From IMG/VR virus record IMGVR_UViG_3300022602_002272, positions 1-37,237 of that record: a stretch of DNA of 37,237 bases; one strand, 5' to 3'. The notes under the pieces are model-generated. The model was not told the DNA's origin, did not search any database, and worked only from the letters and a program-made list of their open reading frames with translations. Position numbers and translations under genes: made by a program. Source of the DNA: a virus. Positions 3-36,850 of this stretch are shown in pieces (the first letter of the stretch is position 1; each line of letters starts with the position of its first letter).

Positions 3-323
3 AATCTTTGTATATGGCAGACAGTCGGGCAAGACGTGGACAACGGGCACATGGCAATCCATGGAGCAAGACTGGGCACTTATCTCACAATGCTTACCGA
101 CTGGGACTACACAGAAGTCCAAGACTTCACAAAACTCGAACGACTGTGGAGCAAATACAGTGCAGTAGAATATATGTGCGAAGACTTTACATTTGAAGTT
201 GATACTGCACTAAAAACCAGACTTGGGTTACCCGTTACATCTTTAAATGCAGAGCAAAGTCGTTTCTTCAAACATCACTACAAGAGCAACTTCAAAAATC
301 AAGGGATAATGATTCGTGAGTAA
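3..323 (+). CDS. C-terminal part of an unknown protein (cut by window edge)
   Basis: The reading frame is open from the left edge to a TAA at 321-323, so the visible 106 residues are the C-terminal part of a longer gene. A GTG at 36 exists, but codons before it are open and protein-like, so I do not take it as the start. The peptide is rich in Trp, Tyr and charged residues (for example LTDWDYTEVQDF and FFKHHYKSNF) and has no signal peptide, membrane segment or cofactor motif that I recognise. It overlaps the first radical SAM gene by 8 bases, so it is probably in the same operon. Function unknown. Confidence 0.6.
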   Translation, partial: NLCIWQTVGQDVDNGHMAIHGARLGTYLTMLTDWDYTEVQDFTKLERLWSKYSAVEYMCEDFTFEVDTALKTRLGLPVTSLNAEQSRFFKHHYKSNFKNQGIMIRE

Positions 324-3076: not shown

Positions 3077-3082
3077 TAAAGT

Positions 3083-6958: not shown

Positions 6959-8243
6959 ACCAGAAACATTATGCCTTGCCCCTTGGACACATACATATCT
7001 CAGTCCACAAACAGAAAGACGGATGTGTTGTGCAAGTAGAGAACCTGCACAAAATTTTGAGCAGTATATTGACACAAGTTCTGGTACAGGAAAATACATA
7101 CCAATCACACTAGACGAACATTGGAATTCAGAGCACATGAGGTCAGTTCGTCGCCGTATGATTGCGGGAGAAACACTACCAGAGTGTGAAGTATGCAATG
7201 ATAAATTATTGAATACAAGCGTTTACAGAGATTATTTTAATCATCTTTTTGGTCATAAGTATTCTCAAGTAGTGGAAAGTACTGACGATACTGGTCATAC
7301 GACCATGAAGCCAGTGAGTTGGGATTATAGATTTAGTAATCTGTGCAATTTTAAATGCCGTATGTGTGGCGACATGTTATCAAGTTCTTGGGAAAGTGAA
7401 CAACGACAGCATAATATGATTAATTGGCATAATCCAAAGAATAATTGGATGAAACCAGAAGTCAAGGAACAGATCGAAAAATTTCAAGAAAGTCAAGTGG
7501 AAGCAGAGTTTGCGCGGGCAGTTGAAGAACATCGGGTCGAAGAAGTATATTGGGTTGGTGGTGAGCCACTCATGTATGAACAGCACTGGCGATACATGAA
7601 ACGTATCGTTGAACTTGGGGATGGAAAAAATGTCTACGCACGTTATAACACTAATCTTAGTCGTGTCAATCATCGCGGTGTTAATCTTTACCGGGATATT
7701 CTTTCTGGGTTACGGGACTGGCAAATCTGCGCAAGCCTCGACGGAACAGGTGCGATTGGAGAATACATTAGAACAGGCCTCAGATACGATAGCTGGCTTG
7801 AGAACTTCACTGAAGGAGTTGCGCATTCAACTCATAGTAGACAGATGCGACTCGACTTTACCCTTACCCTGCCAGGAATGTTTGAGATTGAACGCATTGA
7901 ACGATTGTCCACAACCCTCGGTGTACAAGTTCTGGCGAAGGTAATTTTTAGTTTTAGCCCGGACATAGTTATGTCACCTTTAGCCCTACCCAGAGAACTA
8001 CTTGATCCCTGGATAGATGAAACCATCACTGCCGGCGTCACCGGCCCGTTAAAGGATATCTTAGTCCAGCTGAAAACTAGACCCACATTTCAAGAACAAT
8101 GGCCGGAAGAATATCCAAAGGCTATTGCTCGTGGCAAAGCCCGTGTGTTAAAATTAGAACAAATCCGTACACAGCCTATTACTATGACTGACATATTGGC
8201 CCAGCGTCCGGAAGTACTCAAATGGTGGACGAGCATTGAATAA
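6951..8243 (+). CDS. Radical SAM enzyme with N-terminal twitch-type cysteine motif (copy 6 of 6)
   Basis: 430 residues, ATG at 6951, overlapping copy 5 by 8 bases. The N-terminal block is LCLAPW...RMCC (C8, C26/C27), then CEVC (C79, C82); the tail of that motif is weaker than in the other copies. The core is CNFKCRMC (C132, C136, C139), with WVGGEPLMY, RYNTNLS and CASLDGTG downstream. The C-terminal RxxNF block seen in copies 3-5 is not clear here. The gene changes composition: the first half is AT-rich, while the part after about 7560 is richer in GC and uses CGG and C-ending codons, which hints at recombination or dual coding. Substrate unknown. Confidence 0.9.
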   Translation: MNKPETLCLAPWTHTYLSPQTERRMCCASREPAQNFEQYIDTSSGTGKYIPITLDEHWNSEHMRSVRRRMIAGETLPECEVCNDKLLNTSVYRDYFNHLFGHKYSQVVESTDDTGHTTMKPVSWDYRFSNLCNFKCRMCGDMLSSSWESEQRQHNMINWHNPKNNWMKPEVKEQIEKFQESQVEAEFARAVEEHRVEEVYWVGGEPLMYEQHWRYMKRIVELGDGKNVYARYNTNLSRVNHRGVNLYRDILSGLRDWQICASLDGTGAIGEYIRTGLRYDSWLENFTEGVAHSTHSRQMRLDFTLTLPGMFEIERIERLSTTLGVQVLAKVIFSFSPDIVMSPLALPRELLDPWIDETITAGVTGPLKDILVQLKTRPTFQEQWPEEYPKAIARGKARVLKLEQIRTQPITMTDILAQRPEVLKWWTSIE

Positions 8244-10108: not shown

Positions 10109-10175
10109 ACTTGAAATACGCTATCGCAAAAAACTCAAAGAACTACGCAAACGAGACCCATTTATTTACAAATGA
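10074..10175 (+). CDS. Small basic 33-residue protein
   Basis: An ORF of 33 codons overlaps the end of the preceding SGNH gene by 35 bases in another frame. Its TGA overlaps the ATG of the next SGNH gene (ATGA at 10172-10175), the same coupling seen between established genes here. The peptide begins MNWLKNLYNRIKLEI and ends RKRDPFIYK, with an amphipathic, very basic helix between. It fills what would otherwise be a 63-base gap. I recall short phage peptides with a similar KLKELRKRDPFIYK end, but cannot verify this here. Function unknown; membrane or nucleic-acid association would fit its charge. Confidence 0.6.
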   Translation: MNWLKNLYNRIKLEIRYRKKLKELRKRDPFIYK

Positions 10176-10810
10176 TCTACTGCATTGGTGACAGTTTCAC
10201 ATACGGTGAAGAGTTAGCAGACCGTAACAACGCCTGGCCTATTTTGTTAGGGCAGTTACTTGATCGTCCGGTTACTAATTTAGGAAAACCTGCAACAGGA
10301 AACTATCGCATGGTAAAACGTACAATGGATTCTGTTTTTAAAGAGGACGCAGAATTAATTGTAATTGGGTGGAGCGATCCTGCTAGACAAGAGTTTAGTG
10401 ATGATATTAGTATTACCGACCTATGGGCAGGTCGAAGATTCCGTGTAGGTCAATCAGCTAGTGATCATAGAATGGATCTAATTAAGTATATGACTGCCTA
10501 TGACGTTCCGGGATACTATTATGCAAAATGGCTGAGACAAATTATTTTAACACAAGCATTCTGTCGTGCCAACGATATAAAATGTATAATGTTTAGTGCT
10601 TGCAACGCCGAAGATTACAATAAAAAATTTGATAATGAGTTAGTCAATCGTGTTGATACTAGTACTTATGTAGATTGGCCAATGATAGGTGCGTCTGATT
10701 GGACATATGGTACAACACACGGCCCAGGAGGCCACTTTTTAGATGACGGTCATCGGATAGTAGCAGAAAGAATCAATGAACATATTAGGCATCTCGGCTG
10801 GTTTTCATGA
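10172..10810 (+). CDS. SGNH/GDSL hydrolase-like protein
   Basis: 212 residues. YCIGDSFTYGEELADRNNAW at residues 3-22 is a clear SGNH block I with the Ser nucleophile region. LGKPATGNYR is the likely block with the Asn, VIGWSDPARQEF is a strand and loop shared with the SGNH protein at 31046-31747, and DDGHRIVAERI near the C-terminus supplies the catalytic His. The length is usual for a single SGNH domain, and there is no signal peptide. The ATG overlaps the stop of the 33-residue ORF, and the 3' end overlaps the carbamoyltransferase by 35 bases. Probably an esterase or acyltransferase acting on a sugar; substrate unknown. Confidence 0.8.
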   Translation: MIYCIGDSFTYGEELADRNNAWPILLGQLLDRPVTNLGKPATGNYRMVKRTMDSVFKEDAELIVIGWSDPARQEFSDDISITDLWAGRRFRVGQSASDHRMDLIKYMTAYDVPGYYYAKWLRQIILTQAFCRANDIKCIMFSACNAEDYNKKFDNELVNRVDTSTYVDWPMIGASDWTYGTTHGPGGHFLDDGHRIVAERINEHIRHLGWFS

Positions 10811-12257
10811 TGCAGCAGCAACAGTAATTCATGATGGGAATATACTGTTTGCAGGGCACAGCGAACGCTACAGCAAAATAAAAAATGACGCAAACTTCTG
10901 CCCGGGATTGATGGAAGATGTTATGCGATACTGTGATACGCAATACACTGAAATTGCCTATTATGAACGCCCATGGATGAAACAACTTCGCAGAGTGTAT
11001 AGTGGTGAGGGTATTGACTGGAAGAACATAACAACAAGACAAGTCTTGTCTTCACAATTGGGAAATATATTTAAAAACCCAAAGATACACTCTTATAATC
11101 ATCACCTAAGTCATGCTGCTGCAGGATTTCAGACCAGTCGATTTGATCGTGCCACTGTTGTGGTGATTGATGCCATCGGAGAATGGGATACTGTTACCAT
11201 CTGGGGCGCAGAGTATGTGAATAATCGTGCTCGTTATACTCGTCTATGGAGCCAAAAGTATCCGCACAGCATTGGCCTGTTCTACAGTGCTATTACTGAA
11301 AAGATTGGACTCAAACCCAACGAAGATGAATACATCACAATGGGTATGGCAGCATATGGCAAAGATTTAGTTAGCTCGGCCATGCGAAATAGAATAGTTG
11401 GTCACGAGTATGAGGTCACATTCAAGCAAAACTTACATGTTGGTCTACACGACGAATACTTCAATGTGTTTCACGATGCTGACATGGCAGCAAGCGCACA
11501 GTCAGTAACAGAAGATTTGATACTAAACATCATGACTCGTGCCCGTAAGTTCAAGTGGAGCAAAAATTTGGTCTACATGGGAGGTGTAGCCCTTAACTGC
11601 ACTGCTAACGCAAGAATAGGAAACTACTTTGATGATATATGGATTATGCCTTGTCCTGGTGATGCTGGCTCTAGTCTGGGGGCCGCTGCACTTGCTTATG
11701 GTGGCCGGCTTAATTGGACAGATGCTTTTTTGGGTCACAATATTCCTGGTGCTTACCCTGTTAATGACGCCTTGGATCATTTATTGTCTGATCGTATTGT
11801 TGGTGTTGCGAGTGGTCGTGCAGAATTTGGACCAAGGGCGTTAGGCAATCGCAGTTTGTTTGCAGATCCTAGACACAACGATATAAAGGAGCGAGTAAAT
11901 GAGATTAAGAAACGACAACAATTCAGACCTTTTGCGCCCGTTATTTTGGAGGAGTTGGCTGACACTTACTTTGATATGCCTCGTGGTTGGGAGCATAGTA
12001 GGTATATGCAGTCAGTCGCTCGTTGCAGGGTGCCTGACCTATTTCCTGCTATCGTTCACGTTGATTCAACTAGTCGTGTACAGACTGTGCCGAAAGATGG
12101 ATCGGGAATTAGAGAACTGCTCGAAAAATGGTATATAATGACCAATTGTCCCATGCTGCTTAATACAAGCCTCAATATTAAGGGTGAGCCCATGGTTAAC
12201 GACCGTAGTGATGCAGATCGTTTCGAACAACTGTACGGGGTTAAAGTGGTGTCATGA
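10776..12257 (+). CDS. Carbamoyltransferase (NodU/CmcH/TobZ family)
   Basis: 493 residues. The N-terminus MNILGISAGFHDAAATVI is the Kae1-like domain start of O-carbamoyltransferases. NHHLSHAAAGF around residue 110 carries the metal-binding His residues, YMGGVALNCTANARI and CPGDAGSSLGAA are family blocks, and GRAEFGPRALGNRSLFADPR is the C-terminal domain signature. Such enzymes transfer a carbamoyl group from carbamoyl phosphate, through a carbamoyl-adenylate, to a hydroxyl, usually of a sugar. It is shorter than typical bacterial NodU (about 560-600 residues). The start lies inside the SGNH gene, and the end overlaps the kinase ATG (ATGA at 12254). The context supports decoration of a glycan. 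Confidence 0.93.
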   Translation: MNILGISAGFHDAAATVIHDGNILFAGHSERYSKIKNDANFCPGLMEDVMRYCDTQYTEIAYYERPWMKQLRRVYSGEGIDWKNITTRQVLSSQLGNIFKNPKIHSYNHHLSHAAAGFQTSRFDRATVVVIDAIGEWDTVTIWGAEYVNNRARYTRLWSQKYPHSIGLFYSAITEKIGLKPNEDEYITMGMAAYGKDLVSSAMRNRIVGHEYEVTFKQNLHVGLHDEYFNVFHDADMAASAQSVTEDLILNIMTRARKFKWSKNLVYMGGVALNCTANARIGNYFDDIWIMPCPGDAGSSLGAAALAYGGRLNWTDAFLGHNIPGAYPVNDALDHLLSDRIVGVASGRAEFGPRALGNRSLFADPRHNDIKERVNEIKKRQQFRPFAPVILEELADTYFDMPRGWEHSRYMQSVARCRVPDLFPAIVHVDSTSRVQTVPKDGSGIRELLEKWYIMTNCPMLLNTSLNIKGEPMVNDRSDADRFEQLYGVKVVS

Positions 12258-12865
12258 CAACAAAAATTTTAGTAATGGGTTTGCCTGGTTCTGGTAAAAC
12301 AACATTCAGCCAAGAATTAGTCAAACGCTTGATGATGAATCATTCAGTTGCTTGGTATAATGCTGATATTGTTCGTGAAATGTTCAATGATTGGGACTTT
12401 TCTGATGCGGGTAGGACTAGGCAAGTGGTGCGTATGACTGAGTTGGCAGAAACTTCTGATACAGATTATGTGATTTGTGATTTTGTTTGCCCCACTGACG
12501 ATCTCCGTAACAAATTTGACGCAGATGTTCTCATTTGGATGGATACTATCCGTCAAGGTAGATTCGAAGATACAAACAAAGTCTTCACACCCCCAACAAA
12601 TTGGGATTATCGCATCACTGATTGGGATAAACATTGGGTAAAATCTATTGCCGAATACCTAACAAAGTATAGGGATTCGCATAAGAGAAGTTTATTAAAG
12701 GCAGTAAGTTGGCGAATGCTTGGAACTATAGATACTTTTGTTCTTAGTTTGATTATTACTGGTCGTGTAGATTTTGCAGCAGCTATCGGCGGAGTTGAAT
12801 TACTTACAAAAACAATATTATATTATTTTCATGAACGAGTTTGGGCAAAAATCAAAATTCGTTGA
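12254..12865 (+). CDS. APS-kinase-like P-loop kinase fused to a DUF2061 membrane domain
   Basis: 203 residues in two parts. Residues 1-125 form a small P-loop kinase: GLPGSGKTTF is the Walker A, followed by WYNADIVREMFNDWDFS and CDFVCPTDDLR, the pattern of adenylylsulfate kinases (CysC) and related small kinases. Residues 140-203 (RSLLKAVSWRMLGTIDTFVL, then GVELLTKTILYYFHERVW) match the DUF2061 membrane domain with two hydrophobic helices. DUF2061 is often linked to sulfate-activation genes, so the fusion makes sense as a membrane-tethered kinase. Whether it phosphorylates APS or a sugar is open. It overlaps the upstream gene by 4 bases and the convergent downstream gene by 14. Confidence 0.82.
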   Translation: MTTKILVMGLPGSGKTTFSQELVKRLMMNHSVAWYNADIVREMFNDWDFSDAGRTRQVVRMTELAETSDTDYVICDFVCPTDDLRNKFDADVLIWMDTIRQGRFEDTNKVFTPPTNWDYRITDWDKHWVKSIAEYLTKYRDSHKRSLLKAVSWRMLGTIDTFVLSLIITGRVDFAAAIGGVELLTKTILYYFHERVWAKIKIR

Positions 12866-13976
12866 CAGCAGCGGCCAAGTTTTCTTTGAGTTCTCTCCAA
12901 CAACGGTCTAAAAATTCATTGCTATAAAATCTTTGATAATTGTGTTCTAACACAGGAGACATTTCTTGCAAAATCTCGTAGAGTTCATCTTCACTCTTGC
13001 TACAAATCTTGCTCATGGTTTCCCCGATGGCGCTCATGCGCTCAATGGGGTCTTCGATATCATCGTAGCTTTCGTCAATCCATTTGCTAAAAGTCTTGAA
13101 CCCATACTCACGCAAATACTTGAGATTGTGAGCAGGACCAACTAATACAAATGGCATTCTACTGACTATGGGTTTAAATATCTTTTCAGTCAGATGTTTT
13201 TTCTGCTCCCAATAACAAGTCTCTGTTACCAGATAACAAAAACTTTCTTGTGTTTGTTCGACGGCACTCAATACAAAACTGTGATTGGGTATAAATTGGT
13301 GATCTTGATAGTCAATTCTTAATGGAAAAGCAGAAGAACTAATAGTAGTAGCAGATGACTCTGCCAACTCTTGTGTTATTAAGTTTCTTTCCACTAAGTG
13401 TTGTAGATTCTCTCGGTAATTTCCACCCTCTGTGCAGGTGTCGTTGTAACTTACATATCCATCTTTTAATAAATCTCTGTCAATTAATTCTGCTATAAGT
13501 AAACTGCGATACGCTCTTAATCCGCTTGTGATACGATTGAAACTAATATACTTCTTTTTAATTGTTCGTTTTTCTGTTGAAAGTAATCTCTCATCATATC
13601 TATAACCCCTGAACCAATCGTGGGCAGCAAACGCATGATGAAAATAATAAACTGATTTCCAATTGTATTTTTCAAGTATATGATTTAATGGATCGCTATC
13701 TTTTTCTGTAGTAACAAGTACTTTTGGACCTTGTTTTTTGTTAATCTCATCAAATAATGGATAATTATATTTGCCCAGTATGGGTTCTTGGTCATAACAA
13801 ATAAAAAGTGGACCATCTTTTATGTCTTTCCCAAACCGTGATATATCGTCAGTGTTTGACTCGATATTTTCTGGTTGTGTGGATCCATAAGGTAGTAGAT
13901 AAAGTACTCTACGGTGTGTTACAATATTAGTAAGGGCGTAAAAAATAGTCTCGTAATGACTATGGATATTATACAT
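12852..13976 (-). CDS. Putative glycosyltransferase
   Basis: 374 residues. The C-terminal third has TEKIFKPIVSRMPFVLVGP followed by LREYGFKTF, which resembles the donor-binding region of GT-B glycosyltransferases such as GT10 fucosyltransferases (TEK...P...G). Before it lies FICYDQEPILGKYNYPLF, and there is a segment FNRITSGLRAYRSLLIAELI. No signal peptide or membrane helix is visible. The gene is AT-rich and has no clear Shine-Dalgarno. The start codon overlaps that of the divergent 820-residue gene. The likely role is addition of a sugar to a glycan or protein; donor and acceptor are unknown. Family assignment is by motif only. Confidence 0.6.
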   Translation of the reverse strand: MYNIHSHYETIFYALTNIVTHRRVLYLLPYGSTQPENIESNTDDISRFGKDIKDGPLFICYDQEPILGKYNYPLFDEINKKQGPKVLVTTEKDSDPLNHILEKYNWKSVYYFHHAFAAHDWFRGYRYDERLLSTEKRTIKKKYISFNRITSGLRAYRSLLIAELIDRDLLKDGYVSYNDTCTEGGNYRENLQHLVERNLITQELAESSATTISSSAFPLRIDYQDHQFIPNHSFVLSAVEQTQESFCYLVTETCYWEQKKHLTEKIFKPIVSRMPFVLVGPAHNLKYLREYGFKTFSKWIDESYDDIEDPIERMSAIGETMSKICSKSEDELYEILQEMSPVLEHNYQRFYSNEFLDRCWRELKENLAAAVNEF

Positions 13977-16437
13977 GTTTGATATATTTTATTCTGGTGT
14001 AAAACCAAATCTGTTTGCTTTTGAAAAACACGCTAGTAGTCTTGAAGACGCTGCCACAAAGGCAAAAACTAGCCACTTCTGGTATATTTATAGTGACAAT
14101 GACTACACTGGATTTGATTTTGATTATACTCCAGTACCTTGGGAAAACGATCATCTTCATGTTTGGCCCAATCAATGGAACGATTATGGTGGTGCATTCC
14201 TAGCGTGTAAAGATAGCTTGTCTGAAAGAAAATGGCATCATCACAAACAGATCATTCAATCTAAGCCATCTGAGATTAATTGGGTAACATTATATAATTG
14301 TGATTTTGACTATAGTTGGACTCCGCATCCATTTGACCCACCCTTCATCTATGTGTTTGGCAATCAATGGCATTCACCAGAAAGAATGCCAACAGTAGAA
14401 TATCATGTACCCGGAGCAACAGAACGAAAATATATTCATGATATTCGTGCAACATTAAAAGAAACAACAGACAACTGGATAATCAAGGCAGACACTCCCA
14501 TCAAGTTTGATTTTACATGGTGTCCCGATCCATTTGACCCACCTTTCATCTATGTGTTTGGTAATCAATACTGGGAAGGGCAGCGTAGTGCCACAGTAGA
14601 ATATCATGTACCAGGTGCAACTGAGCGTAAGTTTGTAGAAGATATACAAGCAGAATTAACAGACTTGGAAATCTTCTTTATCGATAAGGGTAATCCTCTT
14701 GTTGGATCAAGACTTGTTGGATTTGCTGATCTTGGTATAACGGTGACCAAGACACGCTATGCCAACACAATGATAGACACAATCAAACGCTGTGCCGCAA
14801 AGAGCAAGACTGCACTGTTTTGGGTCATCAGCAGTGAGAATGATTACAGTGATTTCGACTTTGACTGGCAACCTGAGCCATGGCAGCGTAGTATGACTCA
14901 TGTGTTTGGCAGCAAGTGGAATAAATGGACTGACACTTTCTTGATCAACAAGAAAGAGTTCCTACGACATATTGTTTGGGCAGAAAAGCTCGAACAGTTT
15001 CCCAACTTGAACTTTGTAGAAAATCAACTTGTGTCTACATCAAATGACAGCAACGCCATGTACTATGTAGATCATGGCAACGGTGATGCACGATACGATT
15101 TTCCTGAGTTGCAGAAAAAGTTTCCAAACATTCGCACAACCAGATTTGTAGACAACTACCTAGATACCTTCAAGCGTATCATATCAACTGCCACAACTGA
15201 TCATGTTTGGATTCTAAGCAGTGTCTGCAACTACAGTAAATTTGACTTTACTTGGCAACCTGGAGCTTGGGAGCGTGACCAGATTCATTGCTTCTGTAAC
15301 AACATGGGGCAGTGGATGGAAAAGCGCGGCGACACATTCTATATACCAGTAGAAGTATTCAAGTCTCAGATGTACGAGCTTGAGATATTGGATTGGTTCA
15401 ATGTTATTAGTTACAATGCAAGCCAAGATGTTACTCGGTGGGACATACCCGTAGTTGAATATCAGTCAGATAATTTAGTTGAGGAAATTAAAAACTATAA
15501 CTTCACTACTCCCTATGCGTTATTTGCCAACAGAGAGTTTGCTGGCGCGGCTGGTGAAAATGTTGTTGATTGCTTGTGGACAGAGAAAGATAGAACTGTT
15601 CGACCATACTCACAAAGTGGTGGCATAACTCTGGTGCCCAGAGATGTGAAGAAGTATCTGAAAACTCAGATGTATGATTACCCATATCTGTACAAGTATG
15701 CCGAGGGCTTGCCATACAACTATTATGCAGACAATTCGTTGGATGTTGTCTACATCAGCAACGGAGAACCAGATGCCGAACGTTGGTACGAGCATTTGAA
15801 AACCGTCTTGGCACAGATGCATACAGCGGCATATCTTCCAAGATTCACTAACAAACTGCATCGGGTGTCTAATGTCAATGGTCGTGTTGCAGCATATCAG
15901 GCAGCGGCAAGAGCAAGTACAACATATTGGTTCTTTGCTGTATTTGCTAAACTTGAAGTTGATAAGGACTTTGACTTTAACTGGCAACCCGATTACTGGC
16001 AAGAACCCAAACACTATATCTTCAATGCTCGTAATCCTGTTAACGGACTTGAATACGGACACATGGGCATGATTGCTTATAACAAACGCTTGGTACTTGA
16101 GAATAACACACCGGGCATTGACTTTACGCTATCACAACCACATGAGTCAGTGCCCAAACTAAGTGGTACAGCCCACTTCAATCAAGACGCATGGACAACA
16201 TGGCGTACTGCATTCCGTGAAGTACTCAAGTTGCGTATGTTTATGGCAACAAATCCCACACTGGAAACTGAGCATAGATTGAATGTATGGACAACTCAAG
16301 CTGCTGGTAATTACAGTAATTACAGTATTGCGGGTGCAGCCGATGCGTTAAAATACTATGACGAAGTAGAGGGAGATCCAGAGAAACTACAGTTGAGCTT
16401 TGACTGGGATTGGTTGAGAAAACGCTATGATAAATAA
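13975..16437 (+). CDS. Large repeat protein with FDFxW-P motifs, unknown function
   Basis: 820 residues. At least six copies of a module are seen: an aromatic strand (FWYIYSDNDY or FWVISSENDY), then FDFDWQPEPW or similar, then HVFGSKW or YVFGNQW. They lie near 14100, 14300, 14505, 14850, 15230 and 15960. Copies two and three are nearly identical in part. The C-terminal 100 residues form a separate domain (WTTWRTAFREVLKL, then NVWTTQAAGNYSNYSI). There is no signal peptide. The modules could be glycosyltransferase-like or carbohydrate-binding units, given the glycan-type neighbours, but I do not recognise a family. The ATG overlaps the start codon of the minus-strand gene, and no Shine-Dalgarno is evident. 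Confidence 0.8.
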   Translation: MFDIFYSGVKPNLFAFEKHASSLEDAATKAKTSHFWYIYSDNDYTGFDFDYTPVPWENDHLHVWPNQWNDYGGAFLACKDSLSERKWHHHKQIIQSKPSEINWVTLYNCDFDYSWTPHPFDPPFIYVFGNQWHSPERMPTVEYHVPGATERKYIHDIRATLKETTDNWIIKADTPIKFDFTWCPDPFDPPFIYVFGNQYWEGQRSATVEYHVPGATERKFVEDIQAELTDLEIFFIDKGNPLVGSRLVGFADLGITVTKTRYANTMIDTIKRCAAKSKTALFWVISSENDYSDFDFDWQPEPWQRSMTHVFGSKWNKWTDTFLINKKEFLRHIVWAEKLEQFPNLNFVENQLVSTSNDSNAMYYVDHGNGDARYDFPELQKKFPNIRTTRFVDNYLDTFKRIISTATTDHVWILSSVCNYSKFDFTWQPGAWERDQIHCFCNNMGQWMEKRGDTFYIPVEVFKSQMYELEILDWFNVISYNASQDVTRWDIPVVEYQSDNLVEEIKNYNFTTPYALFANREFAGAAGENVVDCLWTEKDRTVRPYSQSGGITLVPRDVKKYLKTQMYDYPYLYKYAEGLPYNYYADNSLDVVYISNGEPDAERWYEHLKTVLAQMHTAAYLPRFTNKLHRVSNVNGRVAAYQAAARASTTYWFFAVFAKLEVDKDFDFNWQPDYWQEPKHYIFNARNPVNGLEYGHMGMIAYNKRLVLENNTPGIDFTLSQPHESVPKLSGTAHFNQDAWTTWRTAFREVLKLRMFMATNPTLETEHRLNVWTTQAAGNYSNYSIAGAADALKYYDEVEGDPEKLQLSFDWDWLRKRYDK
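14085..14092 (-). promoter_or_regulatory. Possible T4-type late promoter box
   Basis: Exact TATAAATA on the minus strand, 109 bases before the ATG of the glycosyltransferase-like gene at 13976. It lies inside the opposing 820-residue gene. T4 late promoters have only this box, so a chance match is possible. Confidence 0.4.
14329..14646 (+). repeat. Direct repeat, two 117-base copies 201 bases apart, inside the 820-residue gene
   Basis: Copies are 14329-14445 and 14530-14646. Both encode PFDPPFIYVFGNQ and TVEYHVPGATERK with mostly silent differences, so the DNA itself is still alike. The offset is 67 codons, keeping frame. This is a recent in-frame tandem duplication of one module. Confidence 0.85.
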
Positions 16438-16440
16438 TAG

Positions 16441-17319
16441 ATGCGCATCCAAGAGATTATCACTGAAACACTGAGCAGAGTTGCTTATCATTATACCAAT
16501 ATTTCCTCTGCACTAAAGATTGTGAAGTCGGGCGTGTTTGAACTCAGTAGTAGTTTGGGTAGTATCGAACAACAATACGCTCCCAAGGGTTACAATTACT
16601 TTCTAAGCACAACAAGAACCAAGATGGGCAACTACCATCGCAGTCGTGCCAGCAACTATGGGGTCATTTTTGTTTTGGATGGTAACTGGTTTAACAATCA
16701 CTATGTTTCTCGACCCATAGACTATTGGGAAAATCGCAATCCACAGGCCAGTCATCACAGAGACAGCGAAGCCGAAGACAGAGTTTTCAGCAGAGAGCCA
16801 ACAATACCAATCGGGGGAGTTGTGGCAATACATGTGTTGGCAGATGTAGGCGAGGGCCATCCACATGGCAATGCTATGGTCAGAGAGTTGTTGATTGCCG
16901 CAAAGACTAGTGGAATAAAAACATATTTGTATGATGAGTTCAACGATTGGGCCAATTTGGATACACGCAAAACCATCAGACCAACACATTTGAAAGGTCA
17001 GCGTGATCCTGCTTGGAACCGTCCAAAGCGCAAAGCGGGCTATATGCAACATTGGATCGAGTTAATGATGATTAACGATCAGAGTAAGTTGAGCAAACGA
17101 GCAGACCAAATGCGTTACAGTCTTAATTACACTTACGACAGGCAAGACGCTGTACATGCATTGTCCACTGACTTGAGTAATGCTCGTAAACCAGATAACG
17201 GCCAGGAACGCGCCGCAGCAGTCAAAATCATCGCTTATATGCGACAGCATCGACTAAACACAGTTGCTGACTTTGTTGAGCACATTGCCAACAAGTGGAA
17301 ACAGATTCAGGCTGTATAA
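16441..17319 (+). CDS. Putative packaged ADP-ribosyltransferase-like protein
   Basis: 292 residues. After the leader MRIQEIITE the protein reads AYHYTNISSALKIVKSG, then YFLSTTRTKMGNYH, VIFVLDGNWF and DSEAEDRVFSREPTIPI. This order (His-Tyr, Ser-Thr strand, Glu-x-Glu-like block) resembles the ADP-ribosyltransferase fold. The leader looks like the capsid-targeting propeptides of T4 internal proteins (MKTYQEFIAE), with I-T-E as a possible prohead-protease cleavage site. The C-terminal 100 residues are basic and helical (NKWKQIQAV end). The ATG is 3 bases after the upstream stop and the 3' end overlaps the convergent aminotransferase. ART assignment is tentative; the leader match is stronger. Confidence 0.55.
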   Translation: MRIQEIITETLSRVAYHYTNISSALKIVKSGVFELSSSLGSIEQQYAPKGYNYFLSTTRTKMGNYHRSRASNYGVIFVLDGNWFNNHYVSRPIDYWENRNPQASHHRDSEAEDRVFSREPTIPIGGVVAIHVLADVGEGHPHGNAMVRELLIAAKTSGIKTYLYDEFNDWANLDTRKTIRPTHLKGQRDPAWNRPKRKAGYMQHWIELMMINDQSKLSKRADQMRYSLNYTYDRQDAVHALSTDLSNARKPDNGQERAAAVKIIAYMRQHRLNTVADFVEHIANKWKQIQAV

Positions 17320-18407
17320 GACTTCTTTACAGTTTGAGCAATGTGCTCAACTTCCGCATCAGTAAGTTCTGGATAGATTGGTAAACTCACACTTTCGTGC
17401 GTGAACTTGTATGCTTCCCATTGTGTGCCTATAACTGTATCGAGCAAATGTCTACCAGCAACTTCATCATACAGTGGTCGTTCGTAATGAACTTTAGTGG
17501 GTATGCCAGCAGTGAGTAAGAAGCTACGCAGACTACTGCGGTTGTGGGTTCTAAATGCAAACTTACTCCAAGCATGAACTGTGCCTTCTGTAATGGGTAA
17601 CATATCAGCATAATCCCCAAAAGTAGAAATATAGAACTCAGCAATCTCAGTTCTGCGCTTTTGCCAAGCATCAAAATACTTGAGTTTGATCAACATTTGA
17701 GCACAATCAATTTCACTCATCTTGCTGTTGATACCAGCAATCTCGTGCCCACTTGGTTTACCATTGTCTTTGAAGTCTCTGAGCACACCGGCAATGTAAG
17801 GGTCGTCAGTCAGCATCATACCACCCGAACCATAGTTGTTTAAATTCTTTGTGGGATCAAAACTCAGTACACTGATATCACCCATTTTACCACTGGGGAT
17901 ACCTTTATAACTGGCACCAAAACTCTGTGCAGCATCTTCAATGATGAACAAATTGCTATTGAAAAATTCAGTGTTTATTCTGAATCTATCATAGTCAATA
18001 GTATTGCCGAACAAGTTAACATACATTACCGTGTCAATTGTGTCACGGAAAGGCTCATAAATCGATTCTAAATCAATCAAACCAGCTGAATTAACATCAC
18101 AAACCGCAGTGTATTCATCAATCATCTGTGTAGTATTAAGCGTAGCAATAAAACTCACGGCAGGAATCAATGTTCCCTTAACTTTACGATTTGGGTCACG
18201 ACACTGTAGCGCAAACAGTAAACCAATTGTTCCACTGTTCACTGTGATCGCATAATCTCTATTGCAGAGCTTGGCTATGGCTGATTCGAATCTCGCTGTA
18301 TACTCACCATCAAGCACTTGACCACTCAAATATACAGCATCAGATGCATCGAGAATTTCATCCCGCAGATTTTTGTATTGTCGTTTAACACCAAAAAAGT
18401 CAATCAT
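17307..18407 (-). CDS. DegT/DnrJ/EryC1/StrS-family sugar aminotransferase
   Basis: 366 residues. A PLP enzyme that converts a keto-sugar nucleotide to an amino sugar. Visible blocks are VYLSGQVLDGEYTARFE, TVNSGTIGLLFAL (cofactor phosphate site), FIIEDAAQSFGASYKG (Asp binding the pyridine nitrogen), and SFDPTKNLNNYGSGG with the Schiff-base Lys, then NSKMSEIDCAQM. The C-terminal block IPTKVHYERPLYD is typical. Full family length. The ATG overlaps the upstream epimerase stop by 4 bases, so the two form one unit. Together with the epimerase it would make an amino sugar donor for the glycosyltransferase-like gene nearby. Confidence 0.93.
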   Translation of the reverse strand: MIDFFGVKRQYKNLRDEILDASDAVYLSGQVLDGEYTARFESAIAKLCNRDYAITVNSGTIGLLFALQCRDPNRKVKGTLIPAVSFIATLNTTQMIDEYTAVCDVNSAGLIDLESIYEPFRDTIDTVMYVNLFGNTIDYDRFRINTEFFNSNLFIIEDAAQSFGASYKGIPSGKMGDISVLSFDPTKNLNNYGSGGMMLTDDPYIAGVLRDFKDNGKPSGHEIAGINSKMSEIDCAQMLIKLKYFDAWQKRRTEIAEFYISTFGDYADMLPITEGTVHAWSKFAFRTHNRSSLRSFLLTAGIPTKVHYERPLYDEVAGRHLLDTVIGTQWEAYKFTHESVSLPIYPELTDAEVEHIAQTVKKSYTA

Positions 18408-19378
18408 AGTTTGTCTTGCCAGTATTTGCTATTTTTGAACCAATCAATGTATCGAGCCAGTCCCTGTTCTAAATTAATCTGCGGGTTGTAGCCAAAATCT
18501 TGTCTCGCAGCCGTAATATCCAATGTTCCCCGTGTCGGGAAATTTGTATCTCTGGGGGCGATAAGCGCAGTGGATTTGGTTTCATGGACAATTGATACCA
18601 CAAGATGTGCAGCGTCTTCGAGGGTACGAGCATTTCCAAAAGTGATGTTATAAGTTTTATTGATCGCGGATATACTTTGAACTGCTTGAGATATTCCTCT
18701 CGCTGTATCTTCAACATGTGTGAAATCGAGTTTCTCGCTGGCCCCGTTAACTTTAAGTGTTTCCCCTCGCAAAGCAGAGAGAATAAACTTACTAACAACT
18801 CGATCCTCAACATCGTATTCACCATAGACTGCGCTCGGGCGAATAATGACATGATCAAAGCACCCACGTCTTGAATAATCTTTGACAAGGTCTTCTCCCA
18901 TTAATTTCATTATTGCATATTGGCCTTGTGGTTTGCATACTGCATCTTCTTTGATACCGTCAGTAAAGTCACCATAGACCATACTGCTACTGATGTAAAC
19001 AAACTTGGGAATCTTAAAAGTTTTGGTAAGTTCAAGCAGATTTACTAAACCACTTGCCATTACATCACTGCCCCATACTGGATTTTTTGCAACAACTTTT
19101 TGACGAGGGAAACTTGCTAAGTGTATAACAGCGCATGTACCGTTGCTAAATGCCCTAAAGAAATTCTCTACTTCTTTATGATCACGCAGATCGATGTGAT
19201 GCGGAGTATTATTGGTACGGGCAATTCTTTCTTGTTTGAGATATGCCAGTTCTGCTTTGTTAATGAATCCGTAATTTGTTACATTGTCGAGTACAAGACA
19301 TTCGTGCCCCTGTGCTCTTAGTTGTCGTACTACATTGTGTCCGATAAAACCCAGACCACCAGTAACAATAAATCTCAT
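18404..19378 (-). CDS. NAD-dependent sugar epimerase/dehydratase (SDR family)
   Basis: 324 residues. FIVTGGLGFIGHNVVRQL at residues 3-20 holds the GxxGxxG NAD-binding motif. VYISSSMVYGD supplies the Ser/Thr block and YAIMKLMGE the catalytic YxxxK. IIRPSAVYG and DFTHVEDTARG are sugar-nucleotide epimerase blocks as in GalE and related dehydratases. The usual length for extended SDR enzymes. It acts on a nucleotide sugar in the cytoplasm; exact substrate (UDP-Glc, UDP-GlcNAc, dTDP-sugar) cannot be told. It overlaps thyA upstream and the aminotransferase downstream by 4 bases each, so translation is coupled. Confidence 0.92.
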   Translation of the reverse strand: MRFIVTGGLGFIGHNVVRQLRAQGHECLVLDNVTNYGFINKAELAYLKQERIARTNNTPHHIDLRDHKEVENFFRAFSNGTCAVIHLASFPRQKVVAKNPVWGSDVMASGLVNLLELTKTFKIPKFVYISSSMVYGDFTDGIKEDAVCKPQGQYAIMKLMGEDLVKDYSRRGCFDHVIIRPSAVYGEYDVEDRVVSKFILSALRGETLKVNGASEKLDFTHVEDTARGISQAVQSISAINKTYNITFGNARTLEDAAHLVVSIVHETKSTALIAPRDTNFPTRGTLDITAARQDFGYNPQINLEQGLARYIDWFKNSKYWQDKL

Positions 19379-23885: not shown

Positions 23886-24086
23886 TCAGTTTCCTTTAAC
23901 AAGATTAGTAAAATTCAAATGTTCTGCACACTTGACACAAATTGCGTTGTAGCGTGGGCCACCGTTACTGCTAACTGCACTGCCACAACTGTGACACAAG
24001 ATAAAAGCCTGTGTCACAACGGCACCACGTGCCGTTTCGTAAATTGGCTCCAATGTGTAGCCAATTATGTTGCGATCATTTTGCAT
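23886..24086 (-). CDS. Small zinc-ribbon protein
   Basis: 66 residues from the ATG at 24086. The longer frame lies inside the metallopeptidase gene, and this start gives an 11-base overlap with its end. CHSCG and CVKC (two CxxC pairs about 18 residues apart) form a probable zinc ribbon in the middle and end of the protein. The N-terminal half is GYTLEPIYETARGAVVTQAF. It may bind nucleic acid or act as a small protein partner. It lies directly after the VWA metallopeptidase, so may be part of the same unit. Confidence 0.65.
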   Translation of the reverse strand: MQNDRNIIGYTLEPIYETARGAVVTQAFILCHSCGSAVSSNGGPRYNAICVKCAEHLNFTNLVKGN

Positions 24087-25341
24087 CTTCGTAGTGTGCC
24101 CAAATACCGAATTCGGGTTCAGCGTCGGGGTTACCTTTGATGATCCACACTGTATCACAGTAGCTTTCAACCTTTTCAGGGCTCCAACCAAAGAAACAGT
24201 AGTCAGTGAACATGATCAATTTCTTGGGTTCGATACCATTCTCGATCATGTAATCCCATACACAGTGAGGATCAGTACCACCACCACCTTTAGGATCAAA
24301 CCTACAAATATCTTCCATGTTTTCACTAGTGAAAGTTTTTGTACCACCAATTTGAGTATCCCAGCCCATTACAAAGATTTTGTATTCAGTGTAACTGTCC
24401 ATAATACCTTGAATTTCGGAAAAGAAGATTTTTAATTCTTCTGGACCAATACTACCAGATGTATCAATACCGATGGCAATATCAATAGTTTCACCTGGCT
24501 TACTTGCTGGCAGAATTGCATCCATGCCCCAGCCTTTACGACTTGGACGAGCAAAAGTATAATCGTTTTTGATTGTACTTTGGATTTGTTGTTCAAGTAA
24601 TTCTTTCCAACTGATTTGTGGTTCAGTCAAATCTTGAATCATGCGTTTAACGCCACCGGGCAAGTTACCAGCACCTGCGGCTTGTGCAGCCTGCAACACG
24701 GCATCCTTAACTTCGTCACGGATAGCTTTCTTTTCTTCTTCGCTTAACTGTGGGCGCAAACCACCGCTGTGAGTGCGAGGTTTGTCCCCGTCAGGACCAC
24801 CATCACCATCATCACCACTGCCGTCCAAGTGTTCGTCAATGACTTGTTTTTCAAGTTCACTCAATTGTTTTTGAGTGGCGTTTTTCATTAGGTGATCATA
24901 GACTTCTTCCATGCTCCAGCCTTTGTATTTTACATCAAACAAACCAACTGGAATTTTCTCACCAACTCTTTGATCAATCAAATCGTTGTTTACGCAATAG
25001 TCAGCGGCAATGTTTGCAATACGATGATCGCGGCCACCATTACGACCCATGTGATCGTAGACCACATGCAAGACTTCATGACCAAACAAGAATTCAACTT
25101 GCTTGAGTGGCATCTTGTTAATGAATTCGCTGTTGTAGTAAAAACGGCGACCGTCGGTGGCCGCTGTGCCGCACCATGCATCAGCATTGATCAATTCAAG
25201 ACGAGTTGCCAAATTACCGAAGAAAGGGGCTTTGAGCAAAAGACCAATTCGAGCAGTGATAAGTTTATCACGAGCCGCCGCGTCAATTTGTGGATTCGTA
25301 GTTGTGACGACTTTTGCTTTTTCTGCGAGAGTGTTAGACAT
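24076..25341 (-). CDS. DUF2201-type metallopeptidase with C-terminal VWA-like domain
   Basis: 421 residues. HEVLHVVYDH at 88-97 gives an HExxH zinc site plus a third His. DHRIANIAADYCVNNDL follows, as in the DUF2201 N-terminal putative metallopeptidase. A Gly/Asp-rich linker lies around 175-190. The C-terminal VWA-like part has IDIAIGIDTSGSIG, a DxSGS MIDAS metal site, and GGGGTDP, the later MIDAS Thr/Asp block. VWA proteins of this kind work with a MoxR AAA ATPase, which is encoded just upstream. AGGAG precedes the ATG, and a strong sigma70-type promoter lies 23-51 bases upstream. Peptidase activity is not proven; the usual role is chaperone-like assembly or metal insertion. Confidence 0.88.
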   Translation of the reverse strand: MSNTLAEKAKVVTTTNPQIDAAARDKLITARIGLLLKAPFFGNLATRLELINADAWCGTAATDGRRFYYNSEFINKMPLKQVEFLFGHEVLHVVYDHMGRNGGRDHRIANIAADYCVNNDLIDQRVGEKIPVGLFDVKYKGWSMEEVYDHLMKNATQKQLSELEKQVIDEHLDGSGDDGDGGPDGDKPRTHSGGLRPQLSEEEKKAIRDEVKDAVLQAAQAAGAGNLPGGVKRMIQDLTEPQISWKELLEQQIQSTIKNDYTFARPSRKGWGMDAILPASKPGETIDIAIGIDTSGSIGPEELKIFFSEIQGIMDSYTEYKIFVMGWDTQIGGTKTFTSENMEDICRFDPKGGGGTDPHCVWDYMIENGIEPKKLIMFTDYCFFGWSPEKVESYCDTVWIIKGNPDAEPEFGIWAHYEDAK

Positions 25342-25363
25342 TGTTTCTCCTGTTTATGTGTCT

Positions 25364-25392
25364 ATTATAGCACAAAAATTATTTTAGTGCAA
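25364..25392 (-). promoter_or_regulatory. Sigma70-type promoter for the metallopeptidase/VWA gene
   Basis: On the minus strand TTGCAC (25387-25392), a 17-base spacer and TATAAT (25364-25369), ending 23 bases before the ATG at 25341. The -10 is a consensus match, and the leader has AGGAG. Confidence 0.75.
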
Positions 25393-25400
25393 ATGAATAC

Positions 25401-25688
25401 TCAAGTATTAATATACTTAAGCGAGAAATGAGTTACTAGACCGTCTTTGAGATATAAAAAATAAGTGCGATCATCTACATACCAAACCCATTTTGGGTCT
25501 ATGTCGTATTCTGGAAATTGTTGTAACCAATAGAGGTCACGCTCAACCCCGGGTCCATAATTTTCCCAGAGCCAGTTACGAGCATTTATAAAATCTTTTG
25601 CGTGATCCGTCCCACGCCATTTAACACGGTGACTAAATGAATCGCTCAACGCATGTCTGCCATCTAATTTTTCTAACAATGCTGCCAT
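25401..25688 (-). CDS. Small unknown phage protein
   Basis: 95 residues from the ATG at 25688, which has TAGGA 7-8 bases upstream; the frame opens 16 codons earlier but without a good site. Trp/Tyr-rich middle and end (NARNWLWENYGPGVERDLYW and WVWYVDDRTYFLYLKDG). The C-terminal strand pattern looks like a small beta-rich phage domain. It lies between the MoxR gene and the metallopeptidase promoter. No function recognised. Confidence 0.7.
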   Translation of the reverse strand: MAALLEKLDGRHALSDSFSHRVKWRGTDHAKDFINARNWLWENYGPGVERDLYWLQQFPEYDIDPKWVWYVDDRTYFLYLKDGLVTHFSLKYINT

Positions 25689-25737
25689 ATTATTCCTACG
25701 AAAAATGGAGGACTTACGGATTTCTCCTGCCTCCAAG

Positions 25738-25752
25738 TGTAGTCAAACTACA
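25738..25752 (-). other. Short perfect hairpin between the MoxR gene and the 95-residue gene
   Basis: TGTAGT-CAA-ACTACA, a 6-base stem with a 3-base loop just after the MoxR stop. No T tract follows, so it is a weak attenuator or RNA-stability element at best. Confidence 0.35.
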
Positions 25753-25764
25753 GGAGTAATTTGA

Positions 25765-26865
25765 TTACTTACCGCTAGCCGCGATAATGAATTTACCAAA
25801 GCGTTTGTGGAAGTCATCAAATGTCTTCATTTTGCCTGGGACAAAAGGAAGTTCATAAGTTGTCAACGCAACACGAGCGCCCATCACAGTCAATTCAGTG
25901 CTAAAGTTGTTCATCATGAACGCCAAGAAGTTGTCGGCCATTTTGTGCCAATCAGCAATCTTGTCTTTGCCAAGTTTTGTGTACTGGTCTTTCAACTCGT
26001 AGCACATACTGATGGTCAAACTGTACATGGCTGAAACTTCTTTGGCTTTCAACTCGCTGACCTTGCCGTTCAACACATCGAGTGGGTTTGGCATTTGACC
26101 AGCAACTTTGCGGTGAGCCATAAAGCTCAAGCCAAGACCTTCACCGATAGTACCAGAAATCAAGTCTTTCAACTCAGATTCAGTGATACCGTCTTGTTTC
26201 AAGAACTGTGACACGAACGACCAGCTACGAGGGGTAGCAAACGCACGGCTTGCAGATTTTGGATCAAAATCAAACAAACTTTGTTTTGCAAAACCAATGT
26301 AACCAACCACATCTTGGTGAATTTGATTGTTAACAGCCCAGTTGAACCAAGAATCAAAGTCAGGACGAACCTCAATGTGAACAAAACGATTCGCCAAGGG
26401 GCTTGGCATGCGATAAGTCACGCCTTTGTCACTTTCACGATTACCAGCAGCCACGATAACAACATTATCGGGCAACTTGTATTTACCGATACGACGGTTC
26501 AGAATCAACTGATAGCCAGCAGCCTGAACACTAGGAGCAGCCGAGTTCATTTCGTCCAAGAACAAAACAACTACGGGGTATTGAGCACAAGTTTCTTCAT
26601 CAGGCAAGTCAATTGGGGGAGCCCAGTCCATCTTACCGTTATCTTTGTTGAAGAAAGGAATACCACGGATATCCGTTGGTTCCATCTGACCCAAACGCAG
26701 GTCATACATATAGCCATTGAGTTCATTGGTAATGCCCTCAACAACTTCGGATTTACCGATGCCTGGAGGACCCCACATAAACACGGGGCGTTTCGTATTG
26801 AAACATGCTTTGATCAGATTGCGGGCTTCACCTGGGGTGACGGTACGAGACTCAGTTACTGCCAT
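25765..26865 (-). CDS. MoxR-type AAA+ ATPase
   Basis: 366 residues. FMWGPPGIGKSEVVEGI is Walker A at about residues 29-45, VVVLFLDEMNSAAPSVQAAG is Walker B and the sensor region, and VIVAAGNRESDKGVTYRMP is sensor 1 with the MoxR-type end. PLANRFVHIEV is the arginine-finger block. MoxR ATPases act with VWA-domain proteins as chaperones in assembly, and the partner VWA protein is encoded next. AAGGAG lies 8 bases before the ATG, and a sigma70-type promoter with a 45-base leader lies upstream. In phages the target of such pairs is not known. Confidence 0.92.
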   Translation of the reverse strand: MAVTESRTVTPGEARNLIKACFNTKRPVFMWGPPGIGKSEVVEGITNELNGYMYDLRLGQMEPTDIRGIPFFNKDNGKMDWAPPIDLPDEETCAQYPVVVLFLDEMNSAAPSVQAAGYQLILNRRIGKYKLPDNVVIVAAGNRESDKGVTYRMPSPLANRFVHIEVRPDFDSWFNWAVNNQIHQDVVGYIGFAKQSLFDFDPKSASRAFATPRSWSFVSQFLKQDGITESELKDLISGTIGEGLGLSFMAHRKVAGQMPNPLDVLNGKVSELKAKEVSAMYSLTISMCYELKDQYTKLGKDKIADWHKMADNFLAFMMNNFSTELTVMGARVALTTYELPFVPGKMKTFDDFHKRFGKFIIAASGK

Positions 26866-33363: not shown

Positions 33364-34212
33364 TTAAGTCCCCCATTCATTTTTAAATAGTGGCACTTGC
33401 AATCGGTCGCTGTAACGCCAACCCTTCCGCATGGCCATTTCTGCCACTGCTCTATTGTTCAAGGTATAAACACTTTCAACCCCACCCACTGGCATAAGAT
33501 ATATATGTCCTTTGAAGCCTGCTGTGCGATATTCCTCTACGACACTTTCAATCTCTGCTAGATCAGTGTCATGTGCCACAACAAACTTAAGATAAGTTGT
33601 ACCCACTTCCTCGTATTCGCATACAATTTTGGGCTTGATAGCATCGTCATGTGCTTCTCCACTTGTGCTAATCTTTGGACTAACACTGAAAGTGATTTCT
33701 CGTTCTGGATTCTGTGCGCGCCAGCCTTTTAAGAAATTATATGTAGATGCTTCTAACCATTGTGTTCCATTTGTCTCAAAGGTCAATTCCTTAAGATCAA
33801 ACATGAACGGAGTAGTTAGCAAATCAGCATAACTCTTTTGCCACCCTAAGAGCGGTTCACCACCTGTGATAACCAAGTGCGTATCGCCCCAAGAGCCTCC
33901 AGGCAATATAGCCCTACAACGATCGGCAATAGCATCAGTTGTAAGCATAGGACTAAGATTCTTAAAATCAGGGTGCCAACTAGCATAACTGTCGCATCCA
34001 GTATTTGTGAGAGGTAAGTCTTCATATTTTTTGTATTGATTAATGTTGATTGCAATTGTATCTGCTTCTGTACTTAGTTGACCCTTAGGCATACCGAAAC
34101 CAGCGCACTTAAAATTGCAACCAAAAGTACGGAGAAATACACTAGGTACACCCATGTAACGGCCTTCGCCTTGAATGCTATAAAATAATTCTGCGATTTT
34201 AATCTTTGCCAT
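33364..34212 (-). CDS. queE: 7-carboxy-7-deazaguanine synthase (radical SAM)
   Basis: 282 residues. Converts carboxytetrahydropterin to 7-carboxy-7-deazaguanine on the way to preQ0. The N-terminus IKIAELFYSIQGEGRYMGVP and FLRTFGCNFKCAGF match QueE; THLVITGGEPLL is the GGE block. The usual third cluster Cys is not in the CX3CX2C position: the next is in GCDSYASWHP, 36 residues after the second, giving CX3CX36C. SD AAGGAAG precedes the ATG. It overlaps the MazG-like gene by 14 bases; QueD lies about 2.1 kb upstream on the same strand. Confidence 0.9.
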   Translation of the reverse strand: MAKIKIAELFYSIQGEGRYMGVPSVFLRTFGCNFKCAGFGMPKGQLSTEADTIAININQYKKYEDLPLTNTGCDSYASWHPDFKNLSPMLTTDAIADRCRAILPGGSWGDTHLVITGGEPLLGWQKSYADLLTTPFMFDLKELTFETNGTQWLEASTYNFLKGWRAQNPEREITFSVSPKISTSGEAHDDAIKPKIVCEYEEVGTTYLKFVVAHDTDLAEIESVVEEYRTAGFKGHIYLMPVGGVESVYTLNNRAVAEMAMRKGWRYSDRLQVPLFKNEWGT

Positions 34213-36193: not shown

Positions 36194-36369
36194 TATTGAT
36201 TCCAATGTCGTATTACACCTGCCACAATAAAGCAGTTAGTTACGATGTATGATAGCACAATAGCTGTGCGAATGCAAGCAATACGGTCTGATTCTCGATC
36301 CGTATTGCCTGCTTTTTCGCCCAAAGCCTTGGCCCAAAGTCTCCATACTTTATGCAAATAAGTCCTCAT
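36193..36369 (-). CDS. Small single-span membrane protein
   Basis: 58 residues from the ATG at 36369; the longer frame lies within queD. RTYLHKVWRLWAKALGEKAG is a basic N-terminal helix and TAIVLSYIVTNCFIVAGVI is one transmembrane segment near the C-terminus, giving an N-in, C-out layout with a short tail (RHWNQ). It overlaps queD by 20 bases. Role unknown; possibly in host membrane or lysis timing, but nothing shows it. Confidence 0.65.
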   Translation of the reverse strand: MRTYLHKVWRLWAKALGEKAGNTDRESDRIACIRTAIVLSYIVTNCFIVAGVIRHWNQ

Positions 36370-36850
36370 TCCATTCTCTGTGGCCTTCACGGAAAGCCAT
36401 GTTGCTTTGTGTTTCACGCACTTCTACACGATAACACCACAGGCGTTCAGCTTCGCCTGGGCCCCACATCTCAGGAATGTAAACGCCATTCACATACTTG
36501 TAGAGCATGTCGCTGAGACCTTCACAGCCCAGTTTGGGTAACACAACAATCTTGGCCATCTTCTTGGCTTCTAACAGTTTGTAAGTTTCCATTTCTGGAT
36601 CATCTGCTGCCACAATGAGCGTATGGTCAAATTGATCTTCAAGTGTACGCTTAAGTTCTTTGAGTCCGCCGTAGTCTGCGGCCCAGTTGCGAACATCAAG
36701 GTCATTGGTACCAAAGAAGAACTTCATACTGAAGCTGTATCCATGAATCAAATTACAATGGCTATCTGCTCGCCATTGACGATAAGCGCAAGGAAATGCG
36801 TCATGGTACTCTTTGGTACTTGTATATTTGTATTGAACGGGTGTAAACAT
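36350..36850 (-). CDS. queD: 6-carboxytetrahydropterin synthase
   Basis: 166 residues. Converts dihydroneopterin triphosphate to carboxytetrahydropterin, the substrate of QueE. SHCNLIHGYSFSMKFFFG carries the Cys and two of the zinc-binding His residues; the usual HGH is HGY here. FDHTLIVAADDP provides the later His and Asp, and RVEVRETQSNMAF matches the C-terminal Glu block. Full family length. The first residues (MFTPVQYKYTSTKEYHDAFP) are slightly longer than some bacterial forms. The stop of the upstream gene overlaps the ATG. Confidence 0.9.
   Translation of the reverse strand: MFTPVQYKYTSTKEYHDAFPCAYRQWRADSHCNLIHGYSFSMKFFFGTNDLDVRNWAADYGGLKELKRTLEDQFDHTLIVAADDPEMETYKLLEAKKMAKIVVLPKLGCEGLSDMLYKYVNGVYIPEMWGPGEAERLWCYRVEVRETQSNMAFREGHREWNEDLFA

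Follow-up and report, generated by a model that had tools for sequence, protein, structure and literature searches.

Known MoxR-vWA systems and the phage pair

RavA-ViaA is a system of a MoxR ATPase and a VWA partner. A pair of this kind is encoded by IMGVR_UViG_3300022602_002272, a linear virus record of 37,237 bases, which is referred to as the window. The pair consists of a MoxR-type AAA+ ATPase of 366 residues (26865-25765, minus strand) and a partner protein of 421 residues (25341-24076, minus strand), in which a zincin-like DUF2201_N domain is followed by a VWA domain of the DUF2201 family. Both proteins are intact and co-inherited, and their nucleotide- and metal-binding residues are nearly invariant across very large distances. 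In joining a MoxR ATPase to a VWA partner, the pair is like RavA-ViaA and the MoxR-vWA-VMAP systems, as these are described in the available text of PMC7159879. It differs from them in the zincin-like N-terminal domain of the VWA partner and in a bpMoxR score below the cut-off. Pfam and PHROG scans of the neighbours brought up neither VMAP nor any third sensor; these scans did not use a dedicated VMAP profile.

The pair is not new, having been described previously in jumbo phages. The available text of Iyer et al. (2021) reports a MoxR-vWA pair in the group 2.2 jumbo phages, proposes a role in virion assembly with processing and cites a protein of Atu_ph07 as a metallopeptidase-fused example (PMC7824862). 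The Atu_ph07 pair (ASV44729.1/ASV44728.2) is like that of the window in both proteins and in domain order, with a metallopeptidase-like N-terminus and a vWA C-terminus. The window protein retains HExxH where Atu_ph07 has HQxxH, and the window lineage, unlike Atu_ph07, contains extra small genes and ThyA/DHFR downstream. The window, the PA5oct-like phi30-3, Phosso and Atu_ph07 have four to five flanking families in common, which keep the same arrangement ahead of MoxR. Judged by this shared gene order, the window is a fragment of a jumbo-type phage of the PA5oct-like phi30-3/Phosso/Atu_ph07 group.

Another counterpart is the gp24/gp25 pair of phage N4, which belongs to the same families (profile E-values of 6e-54 and 5e-46) and has the same order and motifs. 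The N4 proteins are only 27-28% identical to those of the window, and N4 is a podovirus with a 70-kilobase genome in which the pair are middle genes. In the available text on the Schitoviridae, gp24 and gp25 are listed among 17 proteins conserved in these phages. Neither a functional study of the pair nor a paper linking phage N4 with MoxR was found in the open-licence literature. Two of the 17 Schitoviridae-wide proteins, present as a pair in approximately 760-830 phage records, are proteins for which no functional test was found, and one of them is widely mislabelled as an endonuclease. Equating the jumbo-phage pair with gp24/gp25 moves the question into a phage whose genetics are simple and which has a laboratory host.

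The DUF2201/VWA partner protein

An initial annotation, made from the sequence alone, described this protein as a DUF2201/VWA protein with intact HExxH and metal ion-dependent adhesion site (MIDAS) motifs, and the description holds. Residues 26-269 match DUF2201_N (PF13203; E-value 1e-41, 143.8 bits) and residues 288-412 match DUF2201 (PF09967; E-value 1.1e-15, 58.3 bits), both above the cut-off, and the whole protein falls in PHROG 1314 (E-value 1.1e-107). The HExxHxxxxHxxR signature begins with HEVLH at residues 88-92. The MIDAS motif DTSGS lies at 293, where D293, S295 and S297 are present along with the downstream T356 and D380.

Mutation of the MIDAS residues in homologues would have spoken against a conserved function; HExxH and DxSxS are instead kept in all 64 close relatives of the VWA protein. 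A wider comparison used a hand-picked set of 33 VWA proteins (eight phages, four plasmids, eight cyanobacterial loci, the window and 12 relatives) and 28 MoxR proteins. Every one of these 33 VWA proteins contains HxxxHxxxxHxxR and DxSGS, and 32 contain the catalytic Glu. The one protein lacking this Glu is that of Atu_ph07 (L093:9001-10290), which has HQILH and retains all three histidines. The peptidase activity of the Atu_ph07 protein appears doubtful because HQILH stands in place of HExxH.

The model of the full protein (predicted local distance difference test, pLDDT, 75; predicted template modelling score, pTM, 0.51) aligns with VWA domains at Z-scores of approximately 11-12, with a root-mean-square deviation of 2.5-3.8 over 131-162 residues. 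The predicted structure thus confirms a VWA fold for the C-terminal domain. The N-terminal domain was modelled alone because the fold search with the whole model only probed the C-terminal domain, and this second model had a pLDDT of 90 and a pTM of 0.84. The best Foldseek row was selecase, at a weak E-value of 0.014. VIA-align gave similarly weak scores for the zincin Acel_2062 (Z 6.0), selecase (5.6), jannalysin (5.1), SPRTN (5.0), ArdC (4.8) and IrrE (4.2), and the non-zincin TRAP1 (Z 5.1) and aminopeptidases scored close to these rows. Families absent from the fold lists are not excluded by their absence. The closest resemblance of the modelled N-terminal domain is to small zincins, and a zincin fold is supported but not proven because the TRAP1 and aminopeptidase rows lie close by. 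A sequence search of the PDB with the VWA protein returned no relative, only one chance row at an E-value of 0.75.

PHROG 1314 is described as an ‘HNH endonuclease’, a name repeated on RefSeq phage records, for example NC_071039 gp144. PHROGs 1297 and 1314 contain the two window proteins, and the endonuclease description of the latter is unmatched by the window protein: at an E-value of 0.01, Pfam matches only DUF2201_N and DUF2201. The HNH label was rejected for the VWA protein, and its presence on other DUF2201 VWA records is probably the result of transfer from PHROG 1314.

The MoxR ATPase

The MoxR open reading frame (ORF) matches the Pfam families AAA and AAA_5 above their cut-offs and PHROG 1297 (‘ATPase’) at an E-value of 1.5e-99. 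It scores 26.9 against AAA_3 in the protein-level Pfam search, where the cut-off is 27, and 28.6 in the genome search; the bpMoxR score is 24.2, also against a cut-off of 27. The Walker A (GPPGIGKS), Walker B (LFLDE) and sensor (AAGN) motifs are present, so that the ORF is, as first annotated, a complete MoxR AAA ATPase. Across 58 relatives, G37, K38, S39, D104, E105, the sensor 1 asparagine N142 and the arginines R160 and R213 are at least 97% conserved. The Walker residues among them (K38, S39, D104 and E105) bear on the earlier claim of a conserved function, which mutated Walker residues in homologues would have undermined and which is not refuted. The best row of a PDB sequence search with MoxR was Midasin (E-value 1.9e-7).

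Linkage and spread of the pair

The two genes had been noted to lie close together, and their pairing proved to be beyond chance. Among the best 80 of 276 matches by similarity to the window VWA protein, a sample that describes this lineage, MoxR lies upstream of VWA on the same strand in 78 loci, at a distance of 12 to 2,322 nucleotides. The sequence of the two remaining loci (L005 and L083) begins 366 and 53 nucleotides before VWA. Strict adjacency is not universal, as four annotated genes split MoxR and VWA in PA5oct.

The VWA protein was matched in 758 of 50,697 phage records and MoxR in 826. The numbers of VWA and MoxR records by genus are nearly equal, with 187 and 186 for Escherichia, 112 and 112 for Pseudomonas, 70 and 70 for Klebsiella and 34 and 34 for Erwinia; Vibrio, with 96 and 114, is the main mismatch among the ten genera listed. 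Pairwise tree distances of the two proteins correlate at r 0.91 for 28 taxa and r 0.87 for 15 taxa, values which are inflated by related taxa and were reached by none of 5000 permutations. The MoxR and VWA trees disagree on where N4 and the plasmids fall.

Upstream of MoxR there is a 5'-3' exonuclease and four small families, in the same order in phi30-3, Phosso and Atu_ph07; one of the four was not found in phi30-3. Downstream, the families numbered 3, 2 and 4 occur in 37, 39 and 33 of 44 nonredundant loci, ThyA in 31 and DHFR in 17.

Relatives on plasmids and in cyanobacteria

Conjugative plasmids of Burkholderia and Cupriavidus encode, in this order, a MoxR-like ATP-binding protein, a middle protein and a VWA protein; PRTRC genes lie nearby, in one case together with type IV secretion system genes. 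The middle protein of the Cupriavidus plasmid has a weak DUF3150 match just below the cut-off. Another plasmid contains a related pair with toxin-antitoxin-like genes nearby.

DUF2201_N was matched in 15 of 292 sampled cyanobacterial genomes. Leucine-rich repeat variant (LRV, PF01816) proteins lie within approximately 7 kilobases of VWA in seven of the ten cyanobacterial genomes that have the VWA protein of the pair, and the MoxR/VWA locus accounts for 38 of the 43 LRV matches in those genomes. A three-part MoxR/VWA/LRV system is possible in cyanobacteria, and these arrangements suggest that a third, exchangeable component accompanies the pair. No paper joining the leucine-rich repeat variant with MoxR was found in the open-licence literature.

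Two further observations concern these relatives. MoxR/DUF2201-VWA genes with LRV flanks were recorded at the cyanobacterial loci L121, L126, L127 and L128 and in the genomes G001, G002, G010, G093, G113, G120 and G121. The Rhodococcus plasmid pYLL2 (L100) has a RAMP-superfamily CRISPR-associated gene in the vicinity of a DUF2201 VWA gene, and an unannotated MoxR-like frame precedes the latter.

Proposed function and client

The reading preferred here, at about even confidence, is that the two proteins form a remodelling machine of the AAA+ type, which most likely acts on a phage complex handled in particle production. By analogy with other MoxR-family ATPases, MoxR would form a ring which pulls on the client with ATP. 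The role of the VWA partner would be to bring the client in or keep it in place, with the VWA domain making contact through a metal-bridged (MIDAS) link, while the N-terminal zincin-like domain would serve as a regulated protease or a metal-dependent binding module. Ring formation, physical pairing, ATP-driven remodelling and proteolysis are what we infer for the pair. For the jumbo-phage lineage, the client is tentatively placed, at somewhat less than even confidence, as a phage protein complex in particle production, as Iyer et al. proposed; a virion part was also one of the clients suggested in the initial annotation, along with a host complex. Elsewhere, the same machine probably has other clients, given the related pairs on plasmids and in bacterial genomes.

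A hint of a virion role comes from CBB, whose structural cluster (CBB_201-261) includes the pair as CBB_216/217. The available text of a roseophage paper also describes a second structural module near the gp24/gp25 homologues of that phage.

Several observations weigh against the preferred reading. Given the HQxxH of Atu_ph07, proteolysis is, on the residues present, not universal, and the zincin matches of the modelled N-terminal domain are weak (a Foldseek E-value of 0.014 at best and Z-scores of 6 or lower). Adjacency is also broken in the vequintavirus Murica, where the two genes are divergent and approximately 3.6 kilobases apart. CBB_216 and CBB_217 are unnamed in the main text of the CBB paper, including its table of 55 virion proteins detected by mass spectrometry (MS). 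In PA5oct, an ‘ESI-MS/MS’ note is attached to MoxR and equally to thymidylate synthase, GTP cyclohydrolase, FtsH and DNA ligase; the VWA protein is without one. According to the available text of PMC4193335, N4 gp24/gp25 are middle and not late genes. Plasmids, which have no virions, carry related pairs. The Atu_ph07 pair adjoins DNA polymerases and falls in none of the three virion clusters that the paper on that phage names, a placement derived from gene order relative to gp276/gp277 and not from the paper's gene numbers for the pair. On the client, genomic position and particle MS evidence are equivocal.

It is quite possible, at a probability well short of even, that the same machine acts in the replication, nucleotide-metabolism or host-takeover phase, with a replication/nucleotide-synthesis or host complex as client and not the virion. 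The middle timing in N4 (PMC4193335, available text) is consistent with this, as is the adjoining gp26 dCTP deaminase; gp17, an annotated virion protein, also lies within the gp15-gp45 stretch, so that an early position in N4 is compatible with a virion role. Near the Atu_ph07 pair there are DNA polymerases, RNA ligase and ThyX, and thymidylate kinase and DNA polymerase I near that of Phosso. The ThyA and DHFR genes downstream in 31 and 17 of the 44 loci point the same way, although such a nucleotide-gene neighbourhood is general in these phages, and ThyA is also present in CBB, where the pair is embedded among structural genes. The promoters of the pair are sigma70-like, and the available Schitoviridae text has gp24/gp25 conserved together with RNA polymerases, DNA polymerase and primase. 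For the jumbo-phage lineage, a client in virion assembly is preferred by a small margin, and with low confidence, over one in replication or host takeover.

A role in counter-defence is unlikely. Here an AAA+-coupled zincin would strip or cleave proteins on incoming or replicating mobile DNA, in a role like that of SPRTN or ArdC. The idea draws on the presence of relatives on phages, on conjugative plasmids by PRTRC and (in one case) type IV secretion genes and on a plasmid with toxin-antitoxin-like genes. The available text of PMC12839542 describes MoxR-vWA systems with vWA-fused peptidases as bacterial counter-invader systems. SPRTN, ArdC and IrrE do appear among the fold rows of the N-terminal domain (Z 5.0, 4.8 and 4.2), but no better than other zincins and all weakly, and PADLOC gave no match for the VWA protein and only weak AAA matches for MoxR.

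A broader version, improbable to a similar degree, regards the pair as the phage representative of an AAA+-coupled zincin machine spread across mobile elements, in which a third, exchangeable protein would set the client: LRV in cyanobacteria, a DUF3150-like protein on plasmids and the 95-residue RxWxWE protein in the phage lineage of the window. In phages, such a machine would act in the replication phase, clearing or cleaving proteins that belong to the host or are bound to DNA, and would not take part in virion building.

Metalloenzyme maturation, which the initial annotation gave as a role of bacterial versions, found no specific support here and, as metal insertion into a phage enzyme in the manner of MoxR/CoxD-type systems, is very improbable: six radical-SAM-like ORFs (316-8243) and QueE (33364-34212) on the same fragment could be clients, but the radical-SAM cluster is on the opposite strand more than 15 kilobases away, and metalloenzyme maturation as a general task is disfavoured by N4, which keeps the pair with no radical-SAM or ribonucleotide-reductase name annotated in the 46 kilobases examined.

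Layout of the locus

On the minus strand, the order is a 102-residue ORF ahead of MoxR (27275-26967), MoxR, a 95-residue ORF, the DUF2201_N and VWA gene, a 66-residue CxxC ORF and then more small ORFs. The 95-residue ORF (25688-25401), which was overlooked in the initial annotation, is an optional third gene between the pair and has no Pfam or PHROG match. It belongs to a recurrent family with the motif LDxRH..RxWxWExxGP..WxW..IYV; of 44 nonredundant loci, 13 have a member, placed either between the two genes of the pair or directly behind VWA.

The 66-residue ORF (24086-23886), whose ATG overlaps the VWA stop codon, carries CHSC-x15-CVKC. The CxxC-CxxC protein reported to follow the pair is real as an ORF, but it does not form part of a conserved unit: a CxxC..CxxC ORF lies behind VWA in only three of 42 nonredundant loci, and is homologous to that of the window only in the closest relative (L004). 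The zinc-ribbon ORF was rejected as a member of the unit. Two more relatives (L085 and L014) lie away from the pair.

A separate promoter had been claimed for each gene. The sigma70-like promoter of MoxR lies at 26938-26910 (CAGACA-17-TATAAT) and that of the VWA gene, which has a TG-extended -10 element, at 25393-25364 (TTTGCA-18-TATAAT); both are on the minus strand with a 10/12 consensus match. Sigma70-like sites are not in excess across the 5-kilobase region (8 observed vs 10.7 +/- 3.2 expected). Within a span of 120 nucleotides before to 20 after the listed start, TATAAT occurs in 44 of 62 relatives for VWA and 28 of 58 for MoxR. The corresponding figures are 144 of 865 for other ORFs and 10% for random stretches. 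The claim is supported because TATAAT is enriched near both starts relative to these backgrounds. Scans of the whole window for tRNA genes and Rfam families found none.

Other genes in the window

The six radical-SAM-like ORFs at 316-8243 (plus strand) are consecutive and encode proteins of approximately 420-460 residues. In three of these, a SPASM-like domain stands ahead of the radical-SAM domain, which is the reverse of the usual domain order. The region 10172-19378 contains a cluster of a GDSL-like hydrolase, a NodU-like carbamoyltransferase, a DegT aminotransferase and a sugar epimerase, which suggests glycan or base modification; an ORF of 820 residues (13975-16437) had no match. The QueE-like gene at 33364-34212 and a QueD-like gene at 36350-36850 suggest 7-deazaguanine synthesis by the phage.

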